Positions 25,571 to 35,540 of a DNA stretch of 64,000 nt are shown piece by piece. This DNA is from Anaerolineae bacterium (GTDB lineage Bacteria > Chloroflexota > Anaerolineae > UBA4142 > SHND01), in contig JAJTXZ010000004.1 of NCBI GenBank assembly GCA_021463195.1, forward strand, positions 1-64,000. The letters are read 5' to 3'. The stretch's first letter is position 1, and each line of letters starts with the position of its first letter. Under the pieces are notes generated by a model. That model was not told the origin of the DNA, ran no database searches, and worked only from the letters and a program-made list of their open reading frames with translations. The translations under genes were made by a program, and so were the position numbers.

Positions 25571-28021
25571 TTATTCTAACGCGCGCTGCGCCAATGTTTG
25601 CGCGTCGCGCAGACTCAACTCGCGCACAAGTTGTTTGGCATGAGGAATTAGGGGGGGGGACATCGAAAGTTCGTCTACGCCAAGTCCAACGAGCAGCGGA
25701 ATCGCGCGCGGGTCGCCGCCCATTTCGCCGCACACGCCGACCCATTTATTTTGCGCGTGCGCGGCGTCCACAACGCACGCGATGAGCTGCAACACAGACG
25801 GCTGCAACGGTTCGAGCAGCGCGGCGACATTCGGATTCCCGCGTTCAGCGGCGAGAGTGTACTGGGCCAAGTCATTCGAGCCAATCGAAAAGAAATCCAC
25901 CTCGCGCGCAAACGCGGTTGCGCGCAATGCCGCGCTCGGCGCTTCGATCATAATGCCCGTTTCGATGCGTTCGACGACGCGGCTATTTTGCGCGCGCAAT
26001 TCCGCGCGCGCTTGAGCCATCAATGTCTGGGCGTCGCGAAATTCTTGCAAAGTCGAAATCATCGGAAACATGACGCGCAGCGCGGGAAATTCCGCGCCGA
26101 CGCGCAAAATCGCGCGCAGCTGCGTTTTGAATAGTTCCGGACGGGCGAGGCACAAACGCAAACCGCGCAAGCCCAAAAACGGATTCGCTTCGCGCGGCAT
26201 GTCCACATACGGCAGCGGTTTATCGCCGCCAACGTCGAGTGTGCGCAGCAATACCGGACGCCCGTCCAGCGCGCGCGCGACGGCGCGATAGATTTCGTAT
26301 TGTTCCTCTTCGGTCGGCGCGGCGCGACGATCGAGAAATAAAAATTCGGTGCGAAACAGTCCGACCGCTTCCGCGCCCATTTCCATCGCGCGTTGCGCGT
26401 CCGACAGCGAGCCAATATTGGCGGCGATTTCAATGCGTTTATTATCGCGCGTGACGGCGGGAAGAGCGCGCTGCCGCCGCGCGTCTTGCGCCGCCGCGCG
26501 CGCCGCTTCCATACGCGCGCGACAAGCCTTGATTTGAACTGCATCCGGATTAATATAGACGCGCCCATTGTCGCCGTCCGCGATGAGCGTCGCGCCCTCC
26601 GCCACGCGTAAAATCGTTTCGCCCAAACCCACAATCGCGGGAATGCCCAAACTCTTTGCCAAGATCGCGCTGTGACTCGTCGCGCCGCCATACGCGAGAC
26701 AAATAGCTTGAATCGTCTGCGAATCAAGCGCCGCCGTTTCAGCCGGCGTGAGTTCGGGCGCGATCAAGATGCCGCGTTCAAAAACAATCGCATGCGCCGC
26801 GCCGAGTAAACGCGACAAGACGCGGCGCGTCACCGCGCGCACATCCTCCGCGCGCGCGCGTTGATATTCGTCGCTCAACGCGTCGTACGCGAACGCAATC
26901 TGTTCCGCCGCGTCATGCAGCGCGCGCGCGGCATTTTGTTTGTCTTGGAAAATCGCGCGCCGCGCGGGGTCTTGCAGCGCGTCGTCTTGGAGCATTAAAA
27001 TTTGCGCGTCAAAAATGCCCGCTTCATTCAACTTGCCGCGCAGCGCGAGCGCGGCGCGGCGCGTCCGTAATTCATCTTCCGTCTCGCGCAGCGCGTCGCG
27101 CAAACGCGCCCATTCGCTTTCGGCGTCATCCACCGTAGCGGTTGGAATTTGCGGAATGATGGGCTGATACAAACGCGCCGCGCCGAGCGCAAGTCCCGGC
27201 GATGCCGCGCGACCGATGATTTCATTCGCCGCCGCGCCAACCGCGGCGCGCGGTTCAGACGTCGATTGGCTGCCATCTGCCGCCTGTTCGATATCGCCAA
27301 AATTTTCATCCGCCAACTGTTGCAGCGCGGCGAGCGCGGCATCGGCTTGGGCGCCCGACGCGGCGATTTCGATAACATGATTTTGCAGCGCGCCGAGTGT
27401 GGCAACCGCGTTGATGCTTTTCGCGTTGACGGGGCCGCGCGCGGCGGTGAGATTGGACACGCGCACATCCGCGTCAAAGCGCGCGGCGGTTTGCGTAAAA
27501 CGCGCGGCGGGGCGCGCGTGCAAGCCAAGCCGATTCTTGACCACAAGCCGCAAATGGCGCGCCGACTCGGCGGACAAAGTCGAAACTTTTTCAGGAGGGG
27601 GAGAGTTTGGGACAACGCCCAACTGCGCGAGTTTAGGTTCGAGCGCGCGGCGCGCTTCATTTGCCACCACGTCCATAGCGCTGCCCAAGCGCGCTTGCAC
27701 AGCGGCGGCGATACCGCCTTCAACCAACGCGGCGGGCGCAATGATCATGCGCGCGCGCTGCGCGGCGGGAAACATCTCCAACGCGAGTTCGGTGGAAAGA
27801 ATCGCGCTGCCCAAATCCACGAGAATGACAACGCCCGCGTCGGAATATACTTGATCAATCGCGCGCTGTATCAAATTCGCGTCGGTGCCAAGCGGATGCC
27901 CCGGCAGGTCCAATCCGCCGGCAATCGCAATCGGCGCATCGTCACCCGCCATGCCGCGCATGAGTTCAGCGACGCCGGCGGCGAGTTGCGCGCTGTGCGA
28001 GACCACCACCAGACCAACCAT
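25571..28021 (-). CDS. dhaM: DhaM-HPr-enzyme I fusion (complete PTS phosphorelay for dihydroxyacetone kinase)
   Basis: This 816-residue protein carries the whole relay in one chain. Residues 1-130 are the DhaM EIIA-type domain with the active His9 (VVSHSAQL). Residues 155-245 are HPr with His168 in GLHARPA. Residues 265-816 are a full enzyme I with His450 in GGATSHSAILAK and the C-terminal PEP-binding half (GLFRTEFLF, EIGIM-like ETGIMIEAPS, Cys764 in VCGEMGGDP). E. coli DhaM carries only part of EI; this one needs no separate EI or HPr. Phosphate would pass from PEP through His450, His168 and His9 to ADP on DhaL. It is the last gene of the glycerol/DHA operon. A run of nine C in the coding strand lies near residue 790. 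Confidence 0.93.
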   Translation of the reverse strand: MVGLVVVSHSAQLAAGVAELMRGMAGDDAPIAIAGGLDLPGHPLGTDANLIQRAIDQVYSDAGVVILVDLGSAILSTELALEMFPAAQRARMIIAPAALVEGGIAAAVQARLGSAMDVVANEARRALEPKLAQLGVVPNSPPPEKVSTLSAESARHLRLVVKNRLGLHARPAARFTQTAARFDADVRVSNLTAARGPVNAKSINAVATLGALQNHVIEIAASGAQADAALAALQQLADENFGDIEQAADGSQSTSEPRAAVGAAANEIIGRAASPGLALGAARLYQPIIPQIPTATVDDAESEWARLRDALRETEDELRTRRAALALRGKLNEAGIFDAQILMLQDDALQDPARRAIFQDKQNAARALHDAAEQIAFAYDALSDEYQRARAEDVRAVTRRVLSRLLGAAHAIVFERGILIAPELTPAETAALDSQTIQAICLAYGGATSHSAILAKSLGIPAIVGLGETILRVAEGATLIADGDNGRVYINPDAVQIKACRARMEAARAAAQDARRQRALPAVTRDNKRIEIAANIGSLSDAQRAMEMGAEAVGLFRTEFLFLDRRAAPTEEEQYEIYRAVARALDGRPVLLRTLDVGGDKPLPYVDMPREANPFLGLRGLRLCLARPELFKTQLRAILRVGAEFPALRVMFPMISTLQEFRDAQTLMAQARAELRAQNSRVVERIETGIMIEAPSAALRATAFAREVDFFSIGSNDLAQYTLAAERGNPNVAALLEPLQPSVLQLIACVVDAAHAQNKWVGVCGEMGGDPRAIPLLVGLGVDELSMSPPLIPHAKQLVRELSLRDAQTLAQRALE

Positions 28022-28063: not shown

Positions 28064-28441
28064 TCACCGCGCCCAAAACGCCACTGCGCTGTTCGCGCCG
28101 AGAATGGCATAGATCAACCAAATGCCATACAACACGGTTATAACGCCGACGACAGTCAACCCTCTCGTCACGCGACGTTCCCATTGCGCGCTCAAGCCGA
28201 GGTCAAACAAAATCGAACGCGCGCCGAGCATTGCATGAATCGTCACCGCCACCAGAAACGCGAGCTCTAGCGCGATAATGATGGGGTTGCCCAGATACGC
28301 GATGACTTGATTGAAATCGCGCAAACCGCCTGCCGCGATGAAATGATGCGCGATGAAATGAACGCCCAGCAAAAGCAGCAACAGCGCGCCCGTGACCGCT
28401 TGCCAAAACCAGCCGAGCGTAGAACGTTTTGGATTTTGCAC
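28064..28441 (-). CDS. SdhD-like cytochrome b membrane anchor subunit
   Basis: This 125-residue protein has three predicted transmembrane helices with His residues in GVHFIAHHFI and TIHAMLGARSILFDL. The second matches the SdhD/FrdD haem-ligand helix, where His is followed by a loop and Asp. It would form the membrane part of a quinone-reacting complex together with the SdhC-like protein. It lies 51 bp downstream of the SdhC-like gene and 42 bp upstream of the DhaM fusion. Divergence is high, as usual for these anchors, so the call rests on size, topology, His placement and neighbours. Confidence 0.75.
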   Translation of the reverse strand: MQNPKRSTLGWFWQAVTGALLLLLLGVHFIAHHFIAAGGLRDFNQVIAYLGNPIIIALELAFLVAVTIHAMLGARSILFDLGLSAQWERRVTRGLTVVGVITVLYGIWLIYAILGANSAVAFWAR

Positions 28442-28492
28442 AAGTTATTCACGCGGCATAACGTTTGGACATTCAAACGTCAAACCGCGCAT

Positions 28493-28885
28493 TCATCCCA
28501 TAAAAATCTTCCACGCGCCCGCCAATAGCAAAACCGCGCCGACAAGCATCAGCGCCGCAAAAAGCGTTTTCTGCGCGCCGACGCCAACGCCCACGCCCGT
28601 CAAGGTCACGCGCACGCCGTTCAAGCCGTGTATCAAAATGCCCGCGAGCAAAATCACATCGAGCGCCAAAAAGAACGGCGAACGCGCGAGCGCGACGAAC
28701 GGATCCCATTGCGTCGGACCGCCCGTTAATATGCTCAGCACGACGAGATGCAGATATAAATATACGACCAGTCCGATGGCAGTGACGCGATTGAGAATAT
28801 AAGCAAGCATGCCCACGCGCCAACTGCGAAAATCGAACCAGCGCAAAAAACGTAGCTTTTGGTTTTCAGGCAGAGATAATTTCAT
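28493..28885 (-). CDS. SdhC-like cytochrome b membrane anchor subunit
   Basis: This 130-residue protein has three transmembrane helices. The first contains SdhC-type YILNRVTAIGLVVYLYLHL, where Arg and nearby residues line the quinone pocket. The second holds GILIHGLNGVRVTL, the usual haem-ligand His plus GxR. It is encoded directly after the iron-sulfur subunit (65 bp) and before the SdhD-like gene. It therefore should anchor that subunit and pass electrons to the quinone pool. Confidence 0.82.
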   Translation of the reverse strand: MKLSLPENQKLRFLRWFDFRSWRVGMLAYILNRVTAIGLVVYLYLHLVVLSILTGGPTQWDPFVALARSPFFLALDVILLAGILIHGLNGVRVTLTGVGVGVGAQKTLFAALMLVGAVLLLAGAWKIFMG

Positions 28886-28950
28886 GATATAAAATTTAAA
28901 AATCGGACTTGGAAATTAACACGCGCCGTCTAAAATTCTCCGGCTTTTTT

Positions 28951-29697
28951 TTATTTTCCAAACCCAAATCTTTGCGCGAAAATCCGTCGGCGCAAAGCCA
29001 TAATCGCTTCGGCGGGACGAACATTTTGCGGACATGTTTCCGTGCATTCCCAGGCGCTGTGACAACGCCATACGCCTTGCTCGTCATCCGCAAGTTCGAG
29101 TAGGCGCGCGCGCCTTTGCGGGTCAGTGGTTTTATCCAGTTCGCGCTCAAGCGCCGCCAAGCTCGCCGGTCCAAAAAACTTGACGCTCGCCGCCATTGTC
29201 GGACACGCGCTCAAACAGATGCCGCACTCGATACAATTTTCAAAACGATTGAATGGCACAGTTTCAACCGAGGCGGGGTCAAGACCTTGGTCGTACGCAA
29301 TCGGTTTGCCCTCTAGCTTGTTTTCGGTCGGACGCGTAATGACTAGCCCGCTCGCCGCTTGCTTTTGAAAAAAATTGGCGACATCCACAACCAAATCGCC
29401 GACCAGCGAAAAGTTTTTTAGCGGTTCGATGGTGAGAGGTTTATCGCCATCAAGATATTTTTTGACGGGCACAATGCACGGCAAAACTTCACGCCCGTTG
29501 ACGCGCACCGCGCAAGTGCCGCACGACGCATGATGGCACGCATGCCGAAACATCAAAGCGCGGTCATGCTGCGCCCACGCCTGTTCAATCGCGTCCAACA
29601 CATTCGCCGCGTCGGGGACTGTGACCTTGAACATATCGTACCGCGCGGATTGGTCGGGACGATAGCGAAACATTCGCAAAGTTACATTGAGAGCCAT
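28951..29697 (-). CDS. SdhB/FrdB-like iron-sulfur subunit
   Basis: This 248-residue protein has all three cluster sites of succinate dehydrogenase and fumarate reductase B subunits. The [2Fe-2S] site uses Cys54, 59, 62 and 74 (CHHASCGTCAV). The [4Fe-4S] site uses Cys155, 158, 161 and 165 (CIECGICLSACP). The third site uses Cys212, 218 and 222 (CHSAWECTETCP), the usual [3Fe-4S] pattern. It should wire a flavoprotein to the membrane anchors. No SdhA gene is nearby; the gene just upstream (73 bp) is a GlpA-like glycerol-3-phosphate dehydrogenase. I infer that it serves that enzyme rather than succinate. Confidence 0.9.
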   Translation of the reverse strand: MALNVTLRMFRYRPDQSARYDMFKVTVPDAANVLDAIEQAWAQHDRALMFRHACHHASCGTCAVRVNGREVLPCIVPVKKYLDGDKPLTIEPLKNFSLVGDLVVDVANFFQKQAASGLVITRPTENKLEGKPIAYDQGLDPASVETVPFNRFENCIECGICLSACPTMAASVKFFGPASLAALERELDKTTDPQRRARLLELADDEQGVWRCHSAWECTETCPQNVRPAEAIMALRRRIFAQRFGFGK

Positions 29698-29769
29698 TTA
29701 TTTTAGCCGCCGCGCGTCGGCGCGAAAAAAGAAAATAAAAAATTCGCGCCGCGTGGTGACGCTGCGCGG

Positions 29770-30930
29770 TCAGTTATAAAATTCACGATACGAAATGAGC
29801 GGGGTCGTTTTGGTTTTGCATTCCGCGTGAATGCCCAATTCCGCGCAGACGACATCCGAAACTTTTTCCGCCATGCCGCGCGCGGTCGTCGTCTTGCCGC
29901 CAGAGATCGTAATGATGCCCGCCGCGCCGCCTTGCTTGCGATGATTGAACGCTTCGAATGTGCGCGAAAAATCGCGGGCGTCCACATTCGCGCTGGCTAT
30001 CAACGGACGCGCCACCGCCATCACGCCGCGTTGAACCCCTTTTTTCAAAATGGGCATGAGCAATTGGCCCGCCTCGATCATCTTGTCAATTTGGTCTTGC
30101 GGAATTTCAATCGCGTCGGGTTGCGTCACGCGCCACGAAGTCGTGCCGATGATGGATGTATTGCGAATCGGCACCACAATATCGCCGTCATGCGGTTTGT
30201 GCATGCGGTTAATGACCATATTGTTGAAACGTTTGCCGATGGCGACCATAACGCCCGCCGTCGGCGCGACCGGCACATCTGCCTTTGCCATCGCGGCGAC
30301 CATCCCTGCCCACGCGCCTGTCGCATTCACAATCAAGTCCGCGCCGATGCTTTCCGTTTTACCCGTGCGCTGATCAAAAATTTTCGCGCCCGCGATAGCA
30401 TTGCCCTGAAAAATCAAATCTTGGACCTCTGCAAAGTTGCGAATCGTCGCGCCATTCTTTTTCGCGGTGGCAAGAAACGATACGCAAAAACGCCACGGCT
30501 CGAATACGCCATCGGGAACTTGGACTGCGGCTTTGATGCGCGGATTCAAAAAGGGTTCGATTTTCAACGCTTGCGCGACCTGAATTTCGCGCGCGGGAAT
30601 GCGACACTCGGCGCAACCCGCGAGAAATTGTTCCTTGAACGCGTAATCCTCATCGTCGAGCGCGACAAACAAGCCATCATTCATTTCGAGGACGTGCGGC
30701 ATAATGCGCCGTAAAATAAGATTTTCCTCAATACATTCAATCGCGCCTTCTTGGTCATTCACGCAATAGCGTCCGCCCGAATGCAGCAGGCAGTGATTGC
30801 GCCCCGTCGTTCCCGACGCGATTTCGCCGCGTTCGACGACGGTGACGCGCAAGCCGCGCAGCGCGAGATCATGCGCTGTCGCGCTGCCCGTCGAACCCGC
30901 GCCGATGATGAGGACATGTGGAACGCTCAT
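29770..30930 (-). CDS. glpA: GlpA-like FAD-dependent glycerol-3-phosphate dehydrogenase
   Basis: This 386-residue flavoprotein has an N-terminal dinucleotide site (VLIIGAGSTGSATAHDLALR), the GlpA-type TTGRNHCLLHSGGRYCVND, a second FAD region LIVNATGAWAG and a C-terminal TISGGKTTTARGMAEKV. It oxidises sn-glycerol-3-phosphate to dihydroxyacetone phosphate. Anaerobic GlpA is about 540 residues with a C-terminal BFD-like iron-sulfur domain; that part is missing here. No GlpB or GlpC follows; instead an SdhB-like protein and two SdhC/D-like anchors do. A soluble or different FAD oxidoreductase (for example an L-2-hydroxyglutarate oxidase relative) is possible, but glycerol kinase directly upstream supports the G3P role. 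Confidence 0.85.
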   Translation of the reverse strand: MSVPHVLIIGAGSTGSATAHDLALRGLRVTVVERGEIASGTTGRNHCLLHSGGRYCVNDQEGAIECIEENLILRRIMPHVLEMNDGLFVALDDEDYAFKEQFLAGCAECRIPAREIQVAQALKIEPFLNPRIKAAVQVPDGVFEPWRFCVSFLATAKKNGATIRNFAEVQDLIFQGNAIAGAKIFDQRTGKTESIGADLIVNATGAWAGMVAAMAKADVPVAPTAGVMVAIGKRFNNMVINRMHKPHDGDIVVPIRNTSIIGTTSWRVTQPDAIEIPQDQIDKMIEAGQLLMPILKKGVQRGVMAVARPLIASANVDARDFSRTFEAFNHRKQGGAAGIITISGGKTTTARGMAEKVSDVVCAELGIHAECKTKTTPLISYREFYN

Positions 30931-30966: not shown

Positions 30967-31002
30967 AAACCTTCGAGGATTTGAAATCCTCGAAGGTTTT
31001 CG
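30967..31002. terminator. Perfect hairpin between glycerol kinase and glpA
   Basis: ACCTTCGAGGATTT pairs perfectly with AAATCCTCGAAGGT with a very short loop, and TTTT follows on the plus strand. On the transcribed minus strand it is flanked by AAAA before and TTTG after. It could stop or slow transcription, or cap and stabilise a processed mRNA end inside the operon. Confidence 0.7.
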
Positions 31003-31009
31003 CCGTTTA

Positions 31010-32506
31010 CTATTCTAGCCAATCAAATGTCCGCGTGACGGCTTTCTTCCAACCCTTGTACAATTTATCGCGCGTCGCCGCGTCCATCTGCGGATCCCAT
31101 TCTTTGTCTTGACCCCAATTCGCGCGCAGACTTTCCACATTATCCCAGAAACCGACGGCGAGACCCGCCGCGTATGCCGCGCCGAGCGAAGTCGTTTCCG
31201 CGACGGTCGGACGAATCACCGGCACGCCGAGAATGTCCGCTTGAAATTGCATGAGCAGATTATTGTACACCATACCGCCGTCCACTTTGAGCGCGGTGAG
31301 CGGCACGCTCGAATCCGCGTTCATCGCGTCCAACACTTCACGCGTTTGATACGCGGTCGCTTCGAGCGCGGCGCGCGCAATGTGATTGCGATTGATGTAA
31401 CGCGTCAAGCCGACGATGGCGCCGCGCGCGTCGCTGCGCCAGTACGGCGCAAACAATCCCGAGAACGCTGGCACAATATAAATACCGCCGCTATCTTGGA
31501 CCGTCGCCGCGTAATCTTCGACGTGTTTGGAAAAATCAAACATGCGGAGATTGTCGCGCAGCCACTGCACCAACGCGCCAGTGATGGCGATGGAACCTTC
31601 GAGCGCGTACACCGCGGGTTGATTGCCGATTTTGTAACCGAGCGTCGTAAGCAAACCGCTCTTGGACGGAACAATTTTTTCGCCAGTGTTCAAGAGCATG
31701 AAACAGCCGGTGCCATAAGTATTTTTCGCTTCGCCGGGAGAGAAACAGGTTTGTCCAAACAATGCGGCTTGTTGGTCGCCCAAATCACCCGCGACCGGAA
31801 TACCCGCGAGCGAACCGGTGGCGACACCGTATTTTTCGGATGAAGCGCGAATTTGCGGCAGCAGCGCGCGCGGAATACCCATAATTTTGAGCATGTCCGG
31901 ATCCCAGTCGAGCGTTTTGAGATTCATCAACATTGTGCGCGACGCGTTGGAAACATCCGTCACATGCGCGCCGCCGTTGACGCCGCCGGTCAAATTCCAA
32001 ATAATCCATGTGTCAATATTGCCAAAGGCGAGATCGCCGGCATCCGCCGCCGCGCGCGCGCCGTCCACGTTGTCAAGAATCCATTTGATTTTGGGGCCCG
32101 AAAAATACGTGGCGAGCGGCAAACCCACTTGCTCGCGAAAGCGGTCTTGACCGCCATCTTTGGCGAGTTCATTGCAAATCTGGTCAGTGCGCGTATCTTG
32201 CCACACAATCGCGTTGTATACAGGTTTGCCCGTTTTGCGATTCCAGACCACCGTCGTTTCGCGTTGATTTGTCACGCCGACGGCGGCAAGGTCATTGGAG
32301 CTCAGCGCGCTTTTGGCGAGCGCGCCCGCGATGACGGATTGCACCGCGCCCCAAATTTCCATCGGGTCATGTTCGACCCAACCGGGCTTGGGATAGATTT
32401 GCGTATGTTCTTTTTGGTCATACCCAACCACTTTGCCGCTGTGGTCAAAAATCATAAAGCGCGAGCTGGTCGTACCCTGATCTATAGCGGCGGCATATTT
32501 TGCCAT
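31010..32506 (-). CDS. glpK: Glycerol kinase
   Basis: This 498-residue FGGY kinase begins [20 protein letters not shown] with the phosphate-1 loop, has [31 protein letters not shown], and [18 protein letters not shown] near the C-terminus. It phosphorylates glycerol to sn-glycerol-3-phosphate with ATP. CAAGGAGGC precedes the ATG at 32506; a longer frame would add 29 residues from a low-complexity spacer. It matches the usual 500-residue length. In the operon it lies between DhaL and the GlpA-like dehydrogenase, linking GlpF uptake to G3P oxidation. Confidence 0.97.
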
Positions 32507-32542
32507 TTTTTGCCTCCTTGCAAAAGAAAAAGTAAAAAAAGT

Positions 32543-32613
32543 AAAAAACTCAAAGCTAAAAGTTGTTCCTTGACGCTGCTTGGCATTTTCCACTTTTAGC
32601 TTTTGACTTTTTT
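32543..32613. repeat. AT-rich inverted repeat between dhaL and glpK
   Basis: AAAAAACTCAAAGCTAAAAG (32543-32562) faces CTTTTAGCTTTTGACTTTTT (32593-32612), which is its near-perfect complement. The left flank is made of repeated AAAGTA words. The ribosome-binding site of glycerol kinase lies just after the hairpin on the transcribed strand. Confidence 0.6.
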
Positions 32614-32617
32614 CCTT

Positions 32618-33256
32618 TTAGCTTGTCATGTTCCACGTTTCCGCAGCCGTTTCAAGTAAATAGCATGAGGACGTTGCGCCGGGATCTTGATGGCCCGCGC
32701 TGCGTTCGCCGAGATAACTCGCGCGGCCCTTGCGCGCGACTAACGGAATGGTAGCCGTCATGCCTTGCTGCGCCGCCGACGCGGACGCGTTCAACGCGCT
32801 GGGAATGGACGCGCCGTTATCGCGTTCCACTTTCAGCGCGTTCAAGCCGGGCGCAAGCGCGTCAATCATTGTTTTGTCGCCTGGCTGCGCTTTGCCGCGC
32901 ATAACCACGCCATCATAACCCGCTTGCATAGCGGCAACCCAATCGTCGAGTGTCAATTCCATTTTGCCCGCCGTCGCGTTGCCCATTTGCATAAACATTG
33001 TGCCGTACAACGGACCGCTCGCGCCGCCCACCGTCGAAACCAGTTTCATCCCGACAGTTTTGAAAATGGAGCCGATATCTTTGTCGGCAATTCCGGGCAA
33101 CGTAGTCAGAACCGCTTGCATTCCTCGATTCATATTCGCGCCATGGTCGCCATCGCCAATATCCGAATCGAGCTGTGTCAGATACGCCGCGTTTTCGTTA
33201 ATCGTCGCGGCAAATGTTTTGAGCCAATCGAGAATGGCGTCGCGTGAAATAGTCAT
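32618..33256 (-). CDS. dhaL: Dihydroxyacetone kinase ADP-binding subunit DhaL
   Basis: This 212-residue protein has the DhaL signature: DSDIGDGDHGANMNRG with the three Asp that hold Mg-ADP, STVGGASGPLYGTMF, GDKTMIDAL and GRASYLGERSAGHQDPGA. In PTS-type kinases DhaL keeps ADP bound; DhaM rephosphorylates it, and the phosphate then goes to dihydroxyacetone bound on DhaK. Length is normal. It is downstream of dhaK across a 143-bp spacer with 8-bp repeats. In E. coli DhaL also acts as co-activator of DhaR; the DhaR-like regulator at 36145 makes the same possible here. Confidence 0.95.
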   Translation of the reverse strand: MTISRDAILDWLKTFAATINENAAYLTQLDSDIGDGDHGANMNRGMQAVLTTLPGIADKDIGSIFKTVGMKLVSTVGGASGPLYGTMFMQMGNATAGKMELTLDDWVAAMQAGYDGVVMRGKAQPGDKTMIDALAPGLNALKVERDNGASIPSALNASASAAQQGMTATIPLVARKGRASYLGERSAGHQDPGATSSCYLLETAAETWNMTS

Positions 33257-33399: not shown

Positions 33400-34401
33400 C
33401 TACGCGCCCCAACGCATGCCCGGCGTTTTCACCGGCGCGTCCCACAACGCTTTCAGTTGGTCATCCAACTTGAGCAGCGTAAGCGAACAGCCCGCCATTT
33501 CGAGCGAGGTGATATACGAGCCGATGAGATTACGCCCGATTTGGATACCGCGCCCTTTTAAAAAGTTATAGAGCTCATTGTATACAATGTACAGCTCGAT
33601 GAGCGGCGTGCCGCCCATGCCATTCACAAACGCCAAGACCTCGTCGCCGGCTTTGTATGGCAAATCATCCACAATCGCGGTTGCCATGATTTCGACAATT
33701 TCATGCGCGGACTTGAGTTTCATACGCGTGCGTCCCGGTTCGCCGTGAATGCCGATGCCGATTTCCATTTCATCATCGCCGAGTTCAAAGGTCGGTTTGC
33801 CCGCTTGCGGCACGGTGCAGCTCGTGAGCGCCATACCCATCGAACGCCCTTGCGCGTTCACCTGTTCCGCGATGGTTTTGACTTGCGCGAGCGAATCGCC
33901 GCGTTCCGCCGCCGCGCCCGCGATTTTTTCCAACAGCACAGTCACGCCCACCCCGCGCCGACCGGCGGTGTATAACGAATCCTTGACCGCCACATCGTCA
34001 TTCGTCACCACCGCTTCGACTTGGATGCCTTCGCCGCGCGCGAGGTCCGCCGCCATTTCAAAATTCATAATGTCGCCGGTGTAATTTTTAACGATATGCA
34101 AAACGCCCGCGCCGCCGTTGACCGCTTTGGTCGCTTCGAGCATCTGGTCGGGCGTCGGCGAAGTAAACACCGCGCCGGGACACGCGGCATCGAGCATGCC
34201 TTTGCCGACAAAACCGCCGTGCATTGGTTCATGCCCCGAGCCGCCGCCGGACACGAGCGCGACTTTGCCTTTGATCGGCGCATCCGCGCGCGTAATATAA
34301 TTGGGTTCGTAAAACACTTGGACCAAATCAGAATGCGCTGCCGCAATGCCGCGCAATTCTTCGACGACTACATCTTCGGGTTTATTGATTAGTTTTTTCA
34401 T
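33400..34401 (-). CDS. dhaK: Dihydroxyacetone kinase substrate-binding subunit DhaK
   Basis: This 333-residue protein begins [20 protein letters not shown], has [32 protein letters not shown], and GIHGEPG, whose His (near residue 215) binds dihydroxyacetone covalently as a hemiaminal. It presents the substrate for phosphorylation by DhaL, giving DHAP. GGAGGC lies before the ATG at 34401; the 19-residue longer version has no support. In E. coli DhaK also works as co-repressor of DhaR. It follows the glycerol facilitator gene in the operon. Confidence 0.95.
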
Positions 34402-34515
34402 CTTTGCCTCCAAAGCGCGCGGCTCTATGGAACATTCAGGACCGCGCGCTTTTTTCATTAAAACACAAGGCGGTCCGCCGCGTTGACGTAAACGCGTCGC
34501 GTCAACATCGCGCCG

Positions 34516-35319
34516 CTAACTTTTCTTTACGGGCAGCGCGGGCGTAATGCCGAAATCATAAAAGAATGCGCCCAACACGCCGCCGACGAGCGGACCAAGA
34601 ATCGGCACAACTAACCAATATAGACCGGTAAAACCGTTTGTATCGCCGACCAAGAGCGAAAAAATGCGCGGACCCAGGTCGCGCGCGGGATTAATCGCAT
34701 AGCCCGTCGGACCGCCGAGCGAAAGACCAATGGCGAAAACCGCGATGCCCACCATAAAGGGCCATAGATTAGCGCCCGGGCCAAGGTTATTCACGCTGTC
34801 TACGATAGCATAGATGAACACAATCAAGACAAACGTCCCAATCACTTCGACGATGAAATTCTGCCACAGAATGTCGCCGTAATTACCGCCCGGGCCGGTA
34901 TAAAAGACGTTCGTGAAACCTTTCTTTTGAAAGTCGCCCAGATAGACGAGATAAACCAGCGCCGCGCCGACAAAAGCGCCGACAAGCTGCGCGACCCAAT
35001 AACCGATGGCTTTGCCGATGGGCATTCCACGCCGCACCACTGCCGCCAACGTAACCGCGGGATTAATATGCGCGCCCGTGATACCGCCCGCGACATAGAC
35101 CGCCATTGCCACCGCCATTGCCCAGCCCCACGCGATGGTATTCCAATCATACGCGGTTCCCGCTAAACGCGGGGCAAATACAACATTCGCCACAACGCCA
35201 TCGCCAAACAGAATCAATAGCGCTGTGCCGACAAATTCCGCCCACAGCTCCGCGCCCAGAGTTTCTCGCCGTATCATCGGCAAGAATCCTTTGCGCGTAT
35301 AAATTTCCGATTGCGCCAT
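34516..35319 (-). CDS. glpF: Glycerol facilitator (aquaglyceroporin)
   Basis: This 267-residue MIP channel has six transmembrane helices and both pore loops: GAHINPAVTLAA and YAINPARDLGPR. The Asp after NPAR is the mark of glycerol-conducting channels rather than plain water channels. It lets glycerol, and probably dihydroxyacetone, enter by diffusion. Two in-frame ATG codons lie 6 bp apart; I chose the second (35319) because GGAGG is only 2 bases from the first and 8 from the second. It is the first gene of the nine-gene operon and sits behind a long leader. Confidence 0.95.
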   Translation of the reverse strand: MAQSEIYTRKGFLPMIRRETLGAELWAEFVGTALLILFGDGVVANVVFAPRLAGTAYDWNTIAWGWAMAVAMAVYVAGGITGAHINPAVTLAAVVRRGMPIGKAIGYWVAQLVGAFVGAALVYLVYLGDFQKKGFTNVFYTGPGGNYGDILWQNFIVEVIGTFVLIVFIYAIVDSVNNLGPGANLWPFMVGIAVFAIGLSLGGPTGYAINPARDLGPRIFSLLVGDTNGFTGLYWLVVPILGPLVGGVLGAFFYDFGITPALPVKKS

Positions 35320-35540
35320 TGCCATTACCTCCGTGTTGAATCGTACATTGCTTCAATAAGACATGCTGCCTGTTTCGGCAGCTCCCGCACGCGGAGACGC
35401 CGCTAAACATTTCCGCTTGACCGCGCAACCAATAAAGCGCGGAAACGCTGACCGATCATTTCTTTTCGCGAATTTTCAAGCTTGGCGAAACCGCCTCCTT
35501 TCTTTAGCTTGGTATCCGTCGCAAACAAGCTCCCGTCGGA

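Follow-up and report, generated by a model that had tools for sequence, protein, structure and literature searches.

The window, a stretch of 64,000 nucleotides from an Anaerolineae genome of 4.72 Mb that is 98% complete, carries on its minus strand a single operon in the order glpF-dhaK-dhaL-glpK-glpA-B-C-D-dhaM/ptsI, where B, C and D encode SdhB-, SdhC- and SdhD-like proteins. All of the genes share this strand, and the intergenic gaps from glpK to dhaM measure 42 to 79 bases. The first gene encodes a glpF-like aquaglyceroporin (34516..35325), assigned from its sequence and from its position upstream of dhaK, which is kept in homologous loci. There follow genes for the dihydroxyacetone kinase subunit DhaK (33400..34458; TIGR02363, 507 bits), the PTS-type dihydroxyacetone kinase subunit DhaL (32618..33256; TIGR02365, 247 bits) and the glycerol kinase GlpK (31010..32593; TIGR01311, 747 bits), which makes the glycerol-3-phosphate (G3P) substrate and whose gene precedes glpA at most of the homologous loci. 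The four genes at issue occupy 28064-30930: glpA (29770..30930), for a short FAD-dependent G3P dehydrogenase catalytic subunit of 386 aa with TIGR03377 and DAO matches; B (28951..29697), for an SdhB-like iron-sulfur subunit of 248 aa matching TIGR00384; and genes for two membrane anchors, the SdhC-like C (28493..28885, 130 aa) and the SdhD-like D (28064..28441, 125 aa, GTG start), both matching PF01127 over cut-off (E 2e-11 and E 5e-11, respectively). The flavoprotein, iron-sulfur and anchor genes are thus consecutive in one operon that holds no SdhA, GlpB or GlpC, as the initial annotation had it. The downstream end is a dhaM-HPr-ptsI fusion (25571..28021), the phosphoryl donor of the DHA kinase, read as one 816-aa open frame with TIGR02364, TIGR01003 and TIGR01417 each over cut-off. 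Some relatives encode DhaM, HPr and PTS enzyme I in two or three separate genes.

The 79-base gap between glpK and glpA holds a perfect hairpin with a 15-bp stem and no T-run (30968..30998, minus strand). Folding across a 91-nt stretch gives -34.6 kcal/mol (z -5.6), and the site is the only one in the host genome. The hairpin may be an expression or processing element, and may balance the output of the dehydrogenase against that of glpK. In some relatives the space between glpK and glpA contains open reading frames: two small ones of 89 and 126 aa at L090 (6032-6685), and a methyltransferase-like one at both L118 (6111-6827) and L202 (3831-4433).

The host GlpA matches TIGR03377 (E 6e-131) over model positions 1-379 of 530 and ends at residue 386, falling below the full-length cut-off because the C-terminal third is missing. 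A Pfam search returned the DAO domain (E 5e-48) and no Fer2_BFD (PF04324), which lies at about 412-484 in the canonical GlpA of E. coli and of three other Chloroflexota. The protein therefore has the catalytic domain of the GlpA of canonical GlpABC and, as was noted at the outset, not its C-terminal BFD-like domain. Nor does it belong to the GlpD family, scoring 103 bits against PRK12266 (cut-off 360) and 438 bits against the GlpA model. Its AF2 model (pLDDT 89) nevertheless finds its best PDB match in E. coli GlpD (2qcu; Z 40.4, 376 residues, rmsd 2.9), and the equivalents of GlpD R54, Y55, T270, R317, R332 and K354, several of which bind substrate in GlpD, are invariant in 41/41 short GlpA sequences. 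In a tree of these 41 rows with 14 canonical GlpA and E. coli GlpD, the short proteins form one clade (SH-aLRT 100, stem 0.8), outside which GlpD sits on a very long branch. This tree and that of B were built by a quick method, and some rows stand on long branches.

The B protein scores 173 bits against TIGR00384 (dhsB; cut-off 88) and has ligand sets for [2Fe-2S], [4Fe-4S] and [3Fe-4S] clusters. The 11 cluster cysteines first remarked in the host protein are all there, and are invariant in 92/92 aligned module sequences. In these, position 215 is A, S, G or I and never Cys, as expected for a third centre that is 3Fe-4S and not 4Fe-4S, and 82 of the sequences retain the residue equivalent to SdhB His207. 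Invariant residues of the module's own include E157 and S163; H56, a further candidate, was rejected as module-specific since the host's own SdhB also has it. The AF2 model of B has a pLDDT of 79, with residues 121-154 modelled poorly, and its nearest structural match is E. coli FrdB/SdhB (Z 22, about 210 residues). Whether the B subunits form a clade apart from true SdhB, a check proposed with the initial annotation, is answered by the tree: they constitute one clade (SH-aLRT 99, stem 0.77), with lone B proteins nested inside, separate from the host SdhB, other Chloroflexota SdhB/FrdB, and E. coli SdhB and FrdB.

Both anchors have the haem-ligand character ascribed to them. Invariant in C (80-82 homologues) are R33, H46, H86, G90 and R92, among them the counterparts of E. 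coli SdhC Arg31 and of its haem ligand His84, H86 being the haem-ligand histidine by alignment. D has invariant H28, H33, H69, G73 and R75 (77-79 homologues); these include the counterpart of SdhD His71, and H69 is the haem-ligand histidine by alignment to E. coli SdhD. Since the host's own SDH has matching histidines, a two-haem membrane part of the module is possible. SdhD Tyr83, a quinone-site residue, is not conserved in the D homologues, which counts against the proposed complex.

A single Succ_DH_flav_C protein is encoded in the host genome: SdhA from a separate SDH, located on a different contig with an sdhCD fusion before it and its own sdhB after it, two unrelated genes lying between SdhA and sdhB. 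Sdh_cyt matches number only four, namely the SDH pair and the module pair. An orphan SdhA with no separate SdhBCD, the arrangement that would have made the module an ordinary SDH, is therefore not what the genome holds, and that reading was rejected; a separate SdhA-family protein is likewise present in 19/19 module-bearing genomes tested (the host and 18 others). The GlpA of the window is the only GlpA/GlpD-like protein of the host, the next match being 26% identical over part of its length. No GlpC was over cut-off among the Fer4_8 proteins of the host that were tested, the best being GlcF with 83 bits against 280, and a GlpC elsewhere in the genome was rejected, the candidates being GlcF, LutB, a TfrB/HdrD-like protein and NuoI. 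On another piece of the host genome (L020, 6-1373), an open reading frame of many near-identical repeats (VELPSVELPKVDAPK...) lies directly upstream of nuo genes.

A species-wide scan with the module B alignment covered 84,980 species and confirmed 267 relatives. Among the best 80 of these 267, GlpA lies directly upstream of B at 74 loci and the full A-B-C-D unit is present at 71; of the remaining loci, five have B alone and one is cut by a contig end. In most of the best 80 of 267 glpK precedes the unit, and dhaK, dhaL and dhaM flank about half. Recurrence in about 80 loci excludes chance, and an artefact of one assembly was rejected on the same ground. Carriers include Anaerolinea thermolimosa, Levilinea saccharolytica, Longilinea arvoryzae, Thermoflexus and Dormibacterota, together with a Nitriliruptorales MAG and a MAG labelled Bacillota. 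In the Actinomycetota, the phylum of the Nitriliruptorales MAG, module B was found in 12 of 396 genomes, and A-B-C-D in 10/10 loci examined, so that the GlpA-SdhB-SdhC-SdhD order recurs there as well. The unit is thus carried by many Chloroflexota and some Actinomycetota, inside a glycerol-use operon.

Within 400 Chloroflexota genomes the B search gave a distinct high-scoring group (41-52% identity) above ordinary SdhB, and GlpA split cleanly into short proteins scoring >390 bits and canonical long ones scoring <=331 bits, whose open frames are mostly 518-700 aa. Module B is present in 22/22 of the genomes with a full short GlpA, a count that leaves out G002, which has only a contig-edge fragment of short GlpA; G144 was rejected as a case of short GlpA without B, a contig break running through its B. 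In three genomes (G037, G262 and G349) B and short GlpA are both present though unlinked, so that the association is not mere adjacency. These three genomes have also lost module C/D, and their only Sdh_cyt pair is SDH-like; such a sub-lineage means that B does not work with these anchors in every carrier, and it is counted against the proposal. B alone, unlinked from short GlpA, forms a sub-clade of six loci, without C/D in the three genomes checked. Across 41 loci and the window, pairwise distances of GlpA correlate with those of B at r 0.84, compared with 0.36 for GlpA and its neighbour GlpK, and controlling for GlpK leaves the GlpA-B correlation at 0.83 (permutation p 5e-4).

Two other genomes, G088 and G119, have an operon of the form glpF-dhaK-dhaL-glpK-X-dhaM in which X is canonical long glpA-glpB-glpC, the proteins in G088 showing BFD, FAD_binding_2 and CCG domains. 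In the host operon, the slot between glpK and dhaM is filled by short glpA-B-C-D. Of the contextual evidence, canonical glpABC in the matching slot points most strongly to B-C-D standing in for the BFD domain, GlpB and GlpC. Canonical glpA and the new unit occur together in several genomes (G399, G289, G159 and G327); in G399 (L078/L206) canonical long glpA and short glpA-B-C-D lie on one contig, a few kilobases apart.

In light of these observations, glpA-B-C-D very probably encodes a membrane-bound G3P:quinone oxidoreductase in which a DAO-fold GlpA replaces SdhA on a complex II-type relay. The proposal that GlpA is wired to an SdhB/C/D-type module gains from the recurring order, the separate B clade and the separate SDH. 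In such an enzyme the four proteins would form a complex, and GlpA would use its FAD to oxidise the G3P supplied by GlpK to DHAP. With no BFD domain, GlpB or GlpC in the path, electrons would go from FAD to the [2Fe-2S], [4Fe-4S] and then [3Fe-4S] clusters of B, which would hand them at the B/C/D interface to a quinone that is probably menaquinone; C and D presumably hold haem b. Quinone reduction would thereby depend on G3P, and the DHAP leaving GlpA would join that formed by DhaKLM. Counted against the proposed complex is that SdhA and GlpA differ in their substrate domains.

It could be supposed instead that the genome has in B, C and D an additional set of SDH/fumarate reductase subunits serving SdhA, that glpA is adjacent through operon packing, and that GlpA acts alone in the manner of GlpD/GlpO. 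The homology of B, C and D to SDH/FRD subunits and the resemblance of the GlpA model to stand-alone GlpD would suit this reading. Yet the host's one SdhA already has an sdhCD and an sdhB of its own close by, module B branches separately and has invariant residues of its own, and GlpA and B are together even where unlinked. With GlpA-B covariation far above that of GlpA and GlpK, and with the module replacing glpB-glpC in a matching operon slot, a second SDH set is very improbable.

The G3P:quinone oxidoreductase reading also implies a direction. Because the G3P/DHAP potential lies below that of menaquinone, by textbook values, G3P oxidation should run downhill. The relay could conceivably work in reverse, as a quinol:DHAP reductase, with the resulting G3P going into lipids, for instance, or the reaction disposing of electrons in fermenting Anaerolineae. 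Complex II-type relays can run in either direction, and the carriers include cultured Anaerolineaceae (Anaerolinea, Longilinea and Levilinea) that are fermenters. DHAP reduction by menaquinol would, however, be uphill, and the glycerol uptake and kinase genes of the operon point to G3P supply and not demand; the reverse direction therefore seems very doubtful. That the flavoprotein acts on another 2-hydroxy or glycerol compound, as its distinct clade and long stem might hint, is hardly credible given the invariance of the six GlpD-equivalent residues and a glpK that adjoins the unit in most loci.

The weak spot of the oxidoreductase proposal is the source of quinone, since the host and several carriers have neither MqnA/D nor an over-cut-off MenD. 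MenD over cut-off is absent from the host and eight other carriers, which hold an SDH besides the unit, MqnA/D was found in none of the eight genomes searched, and the host is among the genomes without both. MenD is present in G372, L100 and L115, the carriers with it being G372 and those from Actinomycetota and Bacillota. A bolder, rather unlikely extension would place the unit in a bacterial class related to complex II, its flavoprotein having been swapped from the SdhA type to a DAO fold through in-place replacement of glpBC; H46 and H86 of C with H28, H33 and H69 of D would hold two haems, G3P oxidation would be coupled to transmembrane electron flow, and carriers without known menaquinone pathways would gain their acceptor otherwise.

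If the proposed complex exists, a complex II relay can probably fit a DAO-fold dehydrogenase, which suggests modular exchange among respiratory enzymes. There is also a practical consequence for annotation: module B, C and D would receive the name succinate dehydrogenase, which could lead metabolic models astray. The cultured carriers Anaerolinea thermolimosa, Levilinea saccharolytica and Longilinea arvoryzae make a direct assay possible.

Among known systems, E. coli GlpABC shares with the unit a GlpA-type FAD subunit, a glycerol operon and quinone as the likely acceptor, and other Chloroflexota have GlpABC in the corresponding slot of the operon; the module differs in that its GlpA is without BFD and SdhB/C/D-type subunits replace GlpB and the HdrD-like GlpC. 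With succinate dehydrogenase/fumarate reductase (complex II) it has in common a three-cluster iron-sulfur subunit and two haem-ligand Sdh_cyt anchors, whereas its flavoprotein is a DAO-fold GlpA and not SdhA/FrdA, its B lies outside SdhB/FrdB, and the cell has its own SDH. GlpD is likewise a membrane-associated FAD G3P dehydrogenase of the GlpA fold, but stands alone. GlpA-CoxG of S. acidocaldarius is also a membrane-associated FAD G3P dehydrogenase of matching fold, but the Sulfolobus enzyme is anchored by CoxG without an iron-sulfur relay.

The closest precedent is archaeal. Schmerling et al. 2025 (PMC11962113), working with synteny and a tree of GlpA, proposed a GlpA-SdhBCD complex for Thermofilum pendens and the Thermofilales, and in our literature search, which covered openly accessible papers other than preprints, this proposal was the one report of GlpA-SdhBCD found, with none on a bacterial form. 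Both units have glpA followed by sdhB-, sdhC- and sdhD-like genes, an order shared by the window and 71 of the best 80 of 267 loci, and for both SDH-type electron transfer and anchoring are proposed in G3P oxidation. They differ in that one is archaeal, and in that the DhaKLM context belongs to the bacterial unit, none being described for the archaeal one in the text consulted. The Thermofilum proposal would thus lend independent published support to the GlpA-SdhBCD architecture, of which the bacterial unit appears, on the literature seen, to be a new and widespread instance. An untested archaeal proposal is thereby extended to two bacterial phyla, and the statement of the Thermofilum paper that in bacteria glpA is consistently accompanied by glpB and glpC is contradicted by the bacterial unit, in which short glpA goes with B, C and D.
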